In this document: positions 11,231 through 14,151 of the stretch, in pieces | Numbering within the stretch: the stretch's first letter is position 1 | How the letters are laid out: each line of letters begins with the position of its first letter | DNA from: an uncultured Trichococcus sp. | Lineage (GTDB): Bacteria > Bacillota > Bacilli > Lactobacillales > Aerococcaceae | Direction of reading: 5' to 3' | Assembly: GCF_963667775.1 (NCBI RefSeq) | Contig: NZ_OY764015.1 | Coordinates: forward strand, 626,501-690,500 | DNA: 64,000 bases | The notes under the pieces: generated by a model | The model's input: only the letters and a program-made list of their open reading frames with translations | Told to the model about the DNA's origin: nothing | Databases searched by the model: none | Translations under genes and position numbers: made by a program

Positions 11231-11264
11231 CAATTTGAAATTGATAGAGTCGGGAGGGAAAATG

Positions 11265-11696
11265 ATGCCGGTAGATACTGTAACAATTGCACTGCAGAGA
11301 TTAAAAAAACACGGTTATAAATATACTCAAAAAAGAGAAGATATCATTACAGTTTTTGTGGAAGCTAACCGCTATTTGTCTGCAAAAGCTGTCCTGCATG
11401 CCTTGGAGGATGAATATCCGACACTCAGCTATGATACGATTTACCGAAATCTGTATACTTTTGTTGAAGTTGGGATTTTGGAAGAAACAGAATTGAACAA
11501 CGAAAAACTATTCCAGATCACTTGTTTGCATGAGGGGCACCACCATCATCACTTTATTTGTCAACAATGCGGAATGACGATTGCTTTGCAGATGTGTCCA
11601 ATGGATTTCTTCGAGCAACAGTTGGAAGGATGCCAAATTTCTTCCCATCGCTTCGAAATATTCGGTGTTTGCAAGAACTGCCTAGCTGCTGGATAG
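11265..11696 (+). CDS. zur: Zinc-responsive Fur-family repressor (Zur-like)
   Basis: A 143-aa DNA-binding metalloregulator of the Fur superfamily. The winged-helix half contains KHGYKYTQKRED and TLSYDTIYRNLYTFVEVGILEETEL, which I recognise as close to Bacillus Zur. The metal half has the HHHHHFICQQCG block and the second Cys pair CKNC that holds the structural zinc. ATGs at 11262 and 11265 are both possible; GGGAGGG spacing favours the second. The last 71 bases of the gene, including its stop, lie inside the 183-bp duplication made by the downstream insertion sequence, so the gene stayed whole. Zur rather than Fur or PerR is inferred from sequence resemblance. Confidence 0.85.
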   Translation: MPVDTVTIALQRLKKHGYKYTQKREDIITVFVEANRYLSAKAVLHALEDEYPTLSYDTIYRNLYTFVEVGILEETELNNEKLFQITCLHEGHHHHHFICQQCGMTIALQMCPMDFFEQQLEGCQISSHRFEIFGVCKNCLAAG

Positions 11697-11808
11697 GTCA
11701 ATATGCCGTTCCGCGACCATAAGTTTTTGTTCAGGGACACAAAACAAATACATTTCCTGTTTTTGTTTTGCAATAAAACGTTGCAATTGCTTTTGCCTAT
11801 GATATAAT
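11626..11808 (+). repeat. 183-bp target duplication, left copy
   Basis: Identical base for base to 13715-13897. It holds the end of zur, its downstream region, and a complete promoter (TTGCAA at 11781, TATAAT at 11803). The insertion sequence starts at the next base after TATAAT. Confidence 0.97.
11781..11808 (+). promoter_or_regulatory. Displaced rpsU promoter copy facing the insertion sequence
   Basis: TTGCAA, a 16-base spacer and TATAAT, the same sequence that serves rpsU at 13870-13897. In this copy it now points into the left end of the insertion sequence and would start transcription inside it. Confidence 0.75.
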
Positions 11809-11844
11809 CCCGACTTTGACAGTTAAAATAGTAAAATTCAAATG

Positions 11845-11888
11845 AAAAGCTTGCGGTTATTGGAAAAAACGCAAGTTTTTTATTTTTT
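11845..11888 (+). terminator. Inbound terminator at the left end of the insertion sequence
   Basis: Stem AAAAGCTTGCG with CGCAAGTTTTT (one G-U pair) and a T-rich tail of about 15 bases. It lies between the left inverted repeat and the transposase promoter, where it would stop transcripts entering from outside. Confidence 0.75.
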
Positions 11889-11891
11889 ATG

Positions 11892-11920
11892 TTGTTGTGA
11901 ACGGTTGTGCATGGTATAAT
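11892..11920 (+). promoter_or_regulatory. Transposase promoter placed for leaderless mRNA
   Basis: TTGTTG, a 17-base spacer and TATAAT ending at 11920. The transposase ATG starts at 11926, so the expected transcription start falls on or next to the start codon. Confidence 0.65.
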
Positions 11921-11925
11921 GAGGT

Positions 11926-13614
11926 ATGTTTGTAAAAGTGACTAAGAACCGCGAAGGCACGCAGTATGTTTCAATTGTGGAAGGCTATCGCGACAAAGAT
12001 AAAGTAAAACAACGTACCATCAAATCTTTGGGAAAGTTGAAAGAACTGGAAGCCGGGAATCCTAATTATTTATCGGAATTAAAGGAGGACGTAAAGGCAG
12101 GTAAGTTTCAACCGGAACCGGAAACCCTTTCTCTCACCCTCGATTTGAATAAAAAAATATCAAATCCACTCCAAAACTACGGTTGGCTCCTTTTGGATGA
12201 AATATTCAGGAGCCTTGGGCTCGCAAAGGTTTTGCGAGTACATCAAAAAGGAACGAATTCAAAAATCGATTTGAATGAATCGTTGCGTCTACTGACGGTG
12301 AAAAGGATTTTAGATCCCCAAAGCAAATGGAAAAGCGTTCAGTCCCAAGGGGACTTGTTTGGGGATTTTAATCTATCTCCTCAGGATGTCTACCGATCGT
12401 TGGATACTTTCAGCCTACTGAGCGAACAGATTCAGTTGCAGATGCACCATGTCATCTCAAAAAGCGTCGGGCGCACGGGAGCATTGGTCTTTTATGATGT
12501 CACGAACTACTACTTTGAAACCGATTTGGATGACGAGCCTATTGAGGTGGATGGGGAGACGCTCCCTGCTTTTCGGAAACGGGGCCCCAGCAAGGAGAAG
12601 CGGCCCAATCCTATAGTACAGATGGGTTTGTTCATGGACACCAATGGGATTCCCATTGCATTCCGGTTGTTTCCTGGGAACTGCGTGGATGTTAAAACCT
12701 ACCTACCCGCAGTGGAGCAAATAAAAAAACAGTTCGGGATTGAGCGAATCGTTGTCGTAGCTGACAAAGGGATGAACAGTAAGAACAATATCATTGAGAC
12801 ACTCAAAAATAAGGACGGATACCTTTTCAGTCAAAAAGTTCGTGGCACCAGAGGTGCTCCAAAGGACATTCAAAAATTCGCGCTTGATTCTGAAGATTGG
12901 ATCATCAATGAACAGGAGACCTTCGCAAAAAAATCGATGATTCGAAAAAGAAAAGTTGATAAAAAGGAAATTACAGAAAAAATCCTCGTAACCTGGAATC
13001 AGAAGTATGACTTCCGAGAAAAAATCCGTCGTGAGAAATCGGTGGAGTATGCAGAGAAGTTAACTGCTGGTGAGAGATTCCGGATGACCATGAAAAAAGG
13101 TGGCAAACGATACTTGGATGTAGAAACTGTCGATGAAGAGACTGGAGAAATCAAGAGGCTCGTGCCACACATCTCCATCGATGAGGAGAAAATTGCATTT
13201 GATGAGCAGTTTGATGGCATCAACGTACTGATCACCAGCGAGACGGAAATGAGCGATCAAGAGATGTTGGACAGCTATCGCTCATTGAGTCGCATTGAGG
13301 ATTGTTTCAAAGTACTCAAGACGAACTTTGATGCGCGTCCAATTTATGTCTGGACCCAACCCCATATCGAAGCACATTTTTTGATTTGCTTCATCTCTCT
13401 GACGATCATGCGGCTGCTGGAACATAAGCTGGAATGGCAACTTAGCCCAGAAAGAATACAGAGTGCCCTACTCAGCGCACAGTGCCGTCCGTTGGAAAAG
13501 GGATATTGGGAAGTCTTTGGAAACGAGGATTTCCTGAAAATAAACGAACTTCTCGGTAAAAAATGGAGCCATCAATTTGTTCCGTTAGAAGTCCTTCGGA
13601 CTTACGCAAAATAA
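11926..13614 (+). CDS. IS1634-family DDE transposase
   Basis: A 562-aa transposase related to the IS4 superfamily. The first catalytic Asp is in VFYDVTNYYFET (about residue 193), the second in VVVADKGMNSKNN (about 284), and the catalytic Glu in SYRSLSRIEDCFKVLK (about 455), which keeps the E-(6)-K spacing of IS4-type enzymes. The frame is intact, with no stop or frameshift. There is only GAGGT directly before the ATG, with no spacing, so ordinary Shine-Dalgarno initiation is doubtful and a leaderless start is likely. Base composition looks slightly more AT-rich than neighbouring core genes. Confidence 0.93.
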   Translation: MFVKVTKNREGTQYVSIVEGYRDKDKVKQRTIKSLGKLKELEAGNPNYLSELKEDVKAGKFQPEPETLSLTLDLNKKISNPLQNYGWLLLDEIFRSLGLAKVLRVHQKGTNSKIDLNESLRLLTVKRILDPQSKWKSVQSQGDLFGDFNLSPQDVYRSLDTFSLLSEQIQLQMHHVISKSVGRTGALVFYDVTNYYFETDLDDEPIEVDGETLPAFRKRGPSKEKRPNPIVQMGLFMDTNGIPIAFRLFPGNCVDVKTYLPAVEQIKKQFGIERIVVVADKGMNSKNNIIETLKNKDGYLFSQKVRGTRGAPKDIQKFALDSEDWIINEQETFAKKSMIRKRKVDKKEITEKILVTWNQKYDFREKIRREKSVEYAEKLTAGERFRMTMKKGGKRYLDVETVDEETGEIKRLVPHISIDEEKIAFDEQFDGINVLITSETEMSDQEMLDSYRSLSRIEDCFKVLKTNFDARPIYVWTQPHIEAHFLICFISLTIMRLLEHKLEWQLSPERIQSALLSAQCRPLEKGYWEVFGNEDFLKINELLGKKWSHQFVPLEVLRTYAK

Positions 13615-13640
13615 TCTGTGTTCACAACAATTTCAAAATA

Positions 13641-13696
13641 AGAAAAATCAGCTAAAAACCGCTTTATAGCAGTGTTTTTAACTGATTTTTCTTTTA
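13641..13696. terminator. Terminator at the right end of the insertion sequence
   Basis: A stem of 11 bp (AGAAAAATCAG/CTGATTTTTCT) and 7 bp (TAAAAAC/GTTTTTA) with one mismatch, ending in a T run. It would end the transposase transcript and, in the other direction, block transcripts entering from the right. Confidence 0.8.
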
Positions 13697-13714
13697 TAAA
13701 CTGTCAAAGTCGGG

Positions 13715-13785
13715 AAGGATGCCAAATTTCTTCCCATCGCTTCGAAATATTCGGTGTTTGCAAGAACTGCCTAGCTGCTGGATAG
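13715..13785 (+). pseudogene. Duplicated 3' end of zur
   Basis: The last 71 bases of zur, including the CKNC codons and stop, repeated by the target duplication. There is no start or ribosome site, so it should be silent. Confidence 0.9.
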
Positions 13786-13869
13786 GTCAATATGCCGTTC
13801 CGCGACCATAAGTTTTTGTTCAGGGACACAAAACAAATACATTTCCTGTTTTTGTTTTGCAATAAAACG

Positions 13870-13897
13870 TTGCAATTGCTTTTGCCTATGATATAAT
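13870..13897 (+). promoter_or_regulatory. Functional rpsU promoter
   Basis: TTGCAA, 16 bases, TATAAT. It lies wholly within the duplicated segment and ends at its last base. The expected transcription start leaves a leader of about 70 bases before rpsU. Confidence 0.75.
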
Positions 13898-13977
13898 ATC
13901 AAAAGAACAATTTCATTTTGATTATGTACTTTCAAAAGGAAACGTTACTTTTAATGCTCGGAGGGAGGGAATATTTA

Positions 13978-14151
13978 ATGTCAAAAACAGTTGTTCGTAA
14001 AAACGAATCTCTTGATGATGCTCTTCGTCGCTTTAAACGTACTGTTTCAAAAACTGGAACTCTACAAGACGCTCGTAAACATGAATTTTATGAAAAGCCA
14101 AGTGTGAGACGCAAGAAAAAATCTGAAGCTGCCAGAAAACGTAAATTCTAA
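13978..14151 (+). CDS. rpsU: 30S ribosomal protein S21
   Basis: A small basic protein of 57 aa that sits near the anti-Shine-Dalgarno end of 16S rRNA. It begins [20 protein letters not shown] and ends in a Lys/Arg-rich tail, as usual. GGAGGGAGGG stands about 8 bases before the ATG at 13978. The frame is open upstream, but no other start has a ribosome site. It is transcribed from the promoter restored by the insertion-sequence duplication. Confidence 0.96.

Follow-up and report, generated by a model that had tools for sequence, protein, structure and literature searches.

An insertion sequence (IS) of the IS1634 family sits at the promoter of rpsU, the gene for 30S ribosomal protein S21, in a 64,000-nucleotide stretch of the genome of an uncultured Trichococcus sp. 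(NCBI RefSeq assembly GCF_963667775.1, contig NZ_OY764015.1, positions 626,501 to 690,500 of the forward strand). We call this whole stretch the window and give positions in its own coordinates. The element is flanked by two identical 183-bp direct repeats, and its insertion point is the base following TATAAT, the -10 box of a promoter-like sequence (TTGCAA-16-TATAAT, with TG before the -10) that both repeat copies carry. We read it, with a probability of roughly 0.8, as a recent insertion of the long-duplication IS1634 type, and the transposase lineages nearest to it as ones that integrate at sigma-A type promoters. The position at the rpsU promoter suggests an instance of a target habit, of which we found no earlier description.

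The 183-bp duplication at the rpsU promoter

The element is 1906 bp long (11809-13714), has CCC...GGG ends, and carries perfect 16-bp terminal inverted repeats, CCCGACTTTGACAGTT, at 11809-11824 (plus strand) and 13699-13714 (minus strand). Its one long open reading frame (ORF; 11926-13614, plus strand) encodes a 562-aa transposase that matches the NCBIfam model for IS1634 family transposases (NF033559; 359 bits, cut-off 100, E 4e-107), as well as the Pfam domain DDE_Tnp_1 (E 8e-14); the stretches YDVTNYYF, VVVADKGM, and YRSLSRIEDCF probably carry the catalytic D, D, and E, respectively. A single long ORF with a DDE domain and a length of 1906 bp agree with the architecture and the 1500-2000 bp given for the family in Table 1 of a 2008 review (PMC2266710, a part of which was available to us), and the terminus CCCGACTTTGACAG fits the end pattern C-----YT in that table, with YT at positions 7-8. 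The assignment to IS1634 made in an earlier, sequence-only reading of the window is thus borne out by model score, inverted repeats, and end pattern alike. What the element does not share is the AT-rich duplication of 5-6 bp that the same part of the review gives family-wide; 183 bp is compatible with membership because IS1549 and IS1634 are named there as exceptions, with duplications of 8-514 bp for which, it states, a mechanistic model was still lacking. Long repeats also flank its nearest relatives, measuring 197 bp in a 78%-identical element (L039); the next relative contributes two copies, whose repeats are 136 and 205 bp long.

The two repeat copies lie on the plus strand at 11626-11808 and 13715-13897, and no letter differs between them; a repeat finder returns a maximal repeat of 185 bp (11624-11808 and 13713-13897), the extra two letters being G of the IS end that agree with the flank. 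The left copy runs from the end of a Fur-family gene through intergenic DNA to the core promoter of rpsU, which a promoter scan places at 11781-11808 (plus strand), where this captured, extended -10 promoter now points into the IS. The same scan finds the promoter again at 13870-13897 (plus strand), at the end of the right copy, where it still faces rpsU, with the rpsU ATG 80 bp downstream. The claims that the insertion lies directly after TATAAT of the rpsU promoter and that the right copy restores this promoter therefore hold, since TTGCAA-16-TATAAT stands at both repeat ends and the second of these faces rpsU.

Genomes without the element show how the repeat arose. When the site was joined with a single repeat copy, it gave one unbroken alignment, 78-91% identical, to each of 12 same-genus loci (from 12 other genomes, two of which have a completeness of just 51% and 63%); the junction carries TATGATATAATATC, and the -10 box is kept, in 12/12. 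The 183-bp repeat was therefore created by the insertion, and relatives lacking the element carry one copy, as the sequence-only reading had predicted. Its argument that perfect identity points to a recent event is compatible with what we see. A tandem duplication older than the IS, or an assembly artefact, would be another way to obtain such repeats, and long target duplications are reportedly rare among IS elements generally; given the single copy in every relative, a genome assembled as one contig, and 70 further insertions, at other sites and in other genomes, whose repeats likewise end at the IS ends (rows selected for this), we consider either origin extremely improbable.

By DNA comparison, the 3.3-Mb genome holds one full copy of the element, the second listed match (54 bp) falling within the same element, so that the further copies whose duplication lengths were to be listed after the sequence-only reading yielded no second length. 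Two more distant IS1634-family transposase genes lie in the same genome, at C1:1150785-1152257 (L199) and C1:2782338-2783813 (L200); both stand outside the insertion counts given below.

How often an IS end meets a -10 box

Related transposases were scanned for in named genomes, and 80 of 324 relatives were kept; long repeats adjoin the IS ends at many of these 80 loci. Scoring was limited to the top few candidates in each genome, so that copy numbers are lower bounds. The discovery set comprises 28 loci with clear ends, the window included, out of 33 repeat-bearing loci, and one repeat edge in it often reads TGnTATAA or TATAAT. Five repeat-bearing loci had no recognisable end anchor and were dropped (L070, L075, L077, L093, and L108, the last with a right end that reads GTATAATA). 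With a long repeat defined as at least 15 bp, 244 ORFs comprised 61 distinct long-repeat insertions and 25 duplicates, the other 158 having no long repeat; an extended set of 305 ORFs gave 71, 33, and 201, respectively, the 71 insertions having repeats of 23-853 bp. Thirty-four of the first 61 insertions lie outside the discovery set and constitute a test set, and the last 10, mostly GC-rich, form a third set. The hexamer at each cut site was scored against TATAAT in two registers, with five or six matches counted as a pass and positions 10-150 bp away used as controls.

Passes are concentrated at one end of the element. Among the 61 insertions, the right end passes in 29 and the left end in 4, compared with 3.4-3.5% of controls. 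The test set taken by itself gives 18/34 right ends against 3.9% of controls, and left ends (2/34) that are close to chance; its best scores summed over both ends reach 155, whereas 20,000 permutation draws have a mean of 109.6 and a maximum of 133. When all 71 insertions are counted, 34 have a passing end (the right in 31, the left in 4), with the join at the 3' edge of the TATAAT-like hexamer. The left-end passes are the window element, its 78%-identical relative from Proteiniclasticum aestuarii (L039), and a pair of copies from a single genome of the window's family; in this pair, one copy passes at its right end as well.

In all 34 of these -10 insertions the repeat is 32-336 bp long, and none has a repeat of 15-31 bp, a length that would have been detectable. 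Since the repeat is at least 32 bp, the duplication holds a whole core promoter, the -35 position included. A sequence rule sought at the far end yielded only a weak preference, for C then T just outside the element, to which the assignment of ends may contribute. A TGnTATAA flank occurs at both ends of two elements (L085 and L351), as if each end had picked a -10 box independently. At the other extreme, direct repeats of 853, 728, 704, and 582 bp (L300, L137 (=L089), L129, and L284, respectively) exceed the 514-bp maximum in the available part of PMC2266710, and none of these insertions passes the -10 score.

Promoter character of the sites

The -10 hexamers at cut sites are accompanied by better -35 boxes than are TATAAT-like hexamers elsewhere in that DNA, with mean -35 scores at 16-18 bp of 3.76 and 2.59 (33 vs 2633 hexamers, p=1e-8). 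The excess holds when only the test set is used (20 sites, p=3e-4) and in a comparison restricted to intergenic TATAAT-like hexamers (35 vs 1542, p=3e-7), and there is none at the wrong spacing of 26-28 bp (p=0.71). A TGn precedes the -10 at 18/35 cut sites, compared with 112/1542 intergenic TATAAT-like hexamers. These comparisons bear on pure sequence recognition, under which the transposase would prefer a bendable or meltable AT-rich string resembling TATAAT, promoters would be hit for containing it, and RNA polymerase would have no role. The hexamer itself is the strongest signal in the data, and AT-rich duplications of 5-6 bp are described for the family in the accessible part of PMC2266710, so this alternative deserves serious attention; we nonetheless think it unlikely, because hit sites have a better -35 than nearby intergenic TATAAT-like strings and keep it at the right spacing when -10 match and TG status are made equal (observed 3.69, expected 2.73, stratified p=0.0002).

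The same features argue against survivorship, in which insertion would be near random and only cases that spare their neighbours would be observed. Insertion of this kind should indeed be mild, with at least 32 bp, a whole core promoter, retained in all 34 cases. Selection is unlikely, however, to account for a cut fixed at a single base of the -10, for a preference between the two IS ends (29 right and 4 left among 61), or for a demand for a good -35, and we give survivorship very little credence. Integration at promoters is also in keeping with what lies around the repeats: a ribosome-binding site plus start codon follows within 400 bp of the promoter edge in 33/61 insertions and of the other edge in 13/61, and the promoter edge falls inside an ORF in 10/61 and the other edge in 26/61, counts that must be read with the caution that the start-site test is crude (it missed rpsU itself) and that the promoter edge was partly chosen by its -10 score. 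Twenty-five of the 34 -10 insertions had a downstream ORF that was scanned against Pfam, the remainder being the window's own, four in which no ORF was found, and four with ORFs shorter than 75 aa; 21/25 matched at E<=0.001, and 19/25 scored above the family cut-off. The products include peptidyl-tRNA hydrolase, glutamine synthetase, pantothenate kinase, an aminotransferase, and solute-binding proteins.

A second insertion (L059) could be compared with empty sites at 14 loci from 16 other genomes of its genus (one genome had no match, and one match was left out). The joined site aligns in one piece at 10/14 of these loci and in two pieces at 4/14, and ATTATAnCA (=TGnTATAAT), with n varying, is present at 14/14.

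Distribution among IS1634-family transposases

In a FastTree phylogeny of 160 transposases, in which no ends could be recognised for 76 of the ORFs that lack a long repeat, one branch (support 83) sets all 24 leaves with repeats of 4-6 bp apart from all 59 leaves with long repeats. We draw no evolutionary history from this tree because it is quick and was midpoint-rooted for drawing. A TATAAT-like right flank occurs in 1/24 short-repeat leaves. On the branch with CCCGAGTTTGCC ends, the right flank reads TGnTAT in 13/13 leaves, whether or not a repeat was detected; the CGGG..TTTGACAG branch and the part of the tree near the window element also follow the rule strongly, the CCnTAGTTTTGCAG group less so. 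For the window element, the TTGCAA-16-TATAAT with TG, the distance to the rpsU ATG, and the -10 conserved in every same-genus relative all agree with membership in the promoter-targeting group proposed here.

Besides the crudeness of the start-site test, several points weigh against promoter targeting. Promoters were recognised by consensus alone, and the insertions are not fully independent because some share a transposase (59 distinct transposases among 71 insertions). The window element, which joins by its left end, represents the minority case. The weakest stratum, made up of hexamers that match at 5/6 and lack a TG, does not by itself show a significant -35 excess (11 sites, p=0.09). Fewer than five matches are found at 32/61 right ends, and the 4/6 seen at 15 of these is reached or exceeded by 18.7% of controls. 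The third set has passes at 2/10 right ends, TGGTATAA|T (L336) and TGTTATAA|T (L378, in a region of 65% GC), against 0.6% of controls, and the other eight fail. The CCTGACTCGTGCC and CCTGACTTTATGAC branches have long repeats without a -10 at their edges; for instance, three insertions with CCTGACTCGTGCC ends in one genome of a GC-rich phylum (L363, L384, and L385) have repeats of 64, 122, and 365 bp and no -10 at either edge. It would appear that promoter targeting and long duplication can be separated. The position of the far end cannot be explained by these data, and, with 37/71 long-repeat insertions failing the -10 score, the rule is not universal.

Those failures, together with the long variable duplications already known for IS1634 and IS1549 (8-514 bp in the part of PMC2266710 available), are what one would expect if the window held an ordinary element of this type that had landed at a promoter by chance. 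We judge this improbable, as the base-precise position relative to a promoter recurs in the test set, which is independent of the origin of the idea. The -10 pattern is, in our view, well supported for part of the long-repeat group, and the involvement of RNA polymerase discussed next is a proposal.

A possible role for promoter-bound RNA polymerase

DDE transposases join the 3' end of the IS to a 5' end of the target. By this standard strand transfer, one IS end (the left one here, the right one in most relatives) would be joined to the promoter's template strand where the -10 box ends on its downstream side, at about -8 to -6, which falls within the stretch melted by RNA polymerase. The other end would be joined to the opposite strand upstream, at least 32 bp away in all 34 -10 insertions, and gap filling would copy the stretch between the two joins, leaving a duplication with a whole core promoter. 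One promoter copy would then still face the host gene, here rpsU, and the other would point into the IS, where the window element has a terminator-like hairpin ahead of it. A bound polymerase blocking the first 30 bp would account for repeats of at least 32 bp, and so would counter-selection of cut promoters. Our tentative proposal, which we hold at somewhat less than even odds, is that long-duplication IS1634-type transposases are guided by promoter-bound RNA polymerase, with one end attacking the melted -10 template strand while the polymerase keeps the other end some 30 bp or more upstream; the length and variability of the repeats and the survival of host promoters would both follow. More broadly, the guide would be the polymerase or the melting of promoter DNA, and not the sequence by itself.

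The hairpin, followed by a T-run, lies just within the left end (11840-11885, plus strand; fold -17.1 kcal/mol, z -5.1), downstream of the captured promoter, where its transcripts would run. It also emerged from a wider hairpin comparison and was not among the results of a separate terminator scan. Inward terminators as a promoter-side defence showed no side bias (13/34 promoter-side ends, 16/34 other ends), and we keep the hairpin only as a property of the window element.

Relation to known elements

IS1634 of Mycoplasma mycoides subsp. mycoides and IS1549 of Mycobacterium smegmatis were reportedly described by Vilei in 1999 and by Plikaytis in 1998, respectively. Compared by description only, both are like the window element in transposase family and in long variable direct repeats of 8-514 bp, and the part of the review consulted mentions no promoter target for them (PMC2266710). 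ISGka5 of Geobacillus kaustophilus (6 bp) and an Acidiphilium IS1634 (listed sites of six letters) belong to the same family by name and, in the available portions of their sources, have short duplications, unlike the 183 bp found here (PMC8024623, PMC4549789). Fusion-promoter IS elements and the CREE repeats of Neisseria offer a likeness in their AT-rich, -10-like duplications, but, in the part of the source at hand, these are short and promoters are made by them, whereas here whole promoters are hit and duplicated (PMC9330008). Another IS1634-family member is described, in a partly available source, as binding the replication clamp. Among the literature matches listed, which do not cover the founding IS1634 and IS1549 papers, none reports targeting of -10 boxes by IS1634-type elements.

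Targeted integration that spares the host gene is familiar from yeast Ty1 and Ty3 at Pol III genes and from Tn7 at attTn7. These systems differ from the present one in enzymes and targets, and here the promoter itself is cut and then rebuilt by the long duplication. The -10-box rule points to a possible bacterial counterpart of integration that the transcription machinery directs, and it supplies a testable mechanism for a large part of the long variable duplications known since 1998-1999. It would explain how such elements can sit at the rpsU promoter, or upstream of genes for peptidyl-tRNA hydrolase, pantothenate kinase, or glutamine synthetase, without obvious damage. As a practical signature, long repeats of this kind often flag promoters.

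Neighbouring genes and other features of the element

The left neighbour (11235-11696, plus strand) is a Fur-family regulator by ORF and Pfam evidence, and its frame is whole. The sequence-only reading had called it zur and held that the left repeat copy keeps its end intact; the intact frame bears out the second part, and the name is unsettled because each of the nine Fur-type NCBIfam models listed stayed below its cut-off. The right neighbour, rpsU (13978-14151, plus strand), is confirmed by Pfam Ribosomal_S21. Both genes were said to be left functional; their sequences are intact, and from this we infer that both probably still work. At the start of the rpsU leader (13898-13922), ATCAAAAGAACAATTTCATTTTGAT forms an imperfect inverted repeat that is nearly unchanged in the 12 same-genus loci. 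Rfam at gathering thresholds gave no match anywhere in the window, ATCAAAAGAACAATTTCATTTTGAT included; it may be a regulatory element.

Within the IS, a strong hairpin lies just inside the right end (13640-13693, minus strand; fold z -8.1 on the minus and -6.4 on the plus strand). A possible transposase promoter, TTGTTG-17-TATAAT (11892-11920, plus strand), was not among the results of the promoter scan and is proposed from a block conserved in three relatives (L039, L015, and L009). The transposase ATG (11926) begins 5 nt past the conserved TATAAT, and six or so in those relatives, which may make the transposase mRNA leaderless. At the -35 of this putative promoter lies the TTGTTGTG block, which reappears inverted near the right end of the element and could be a transposase binding site.

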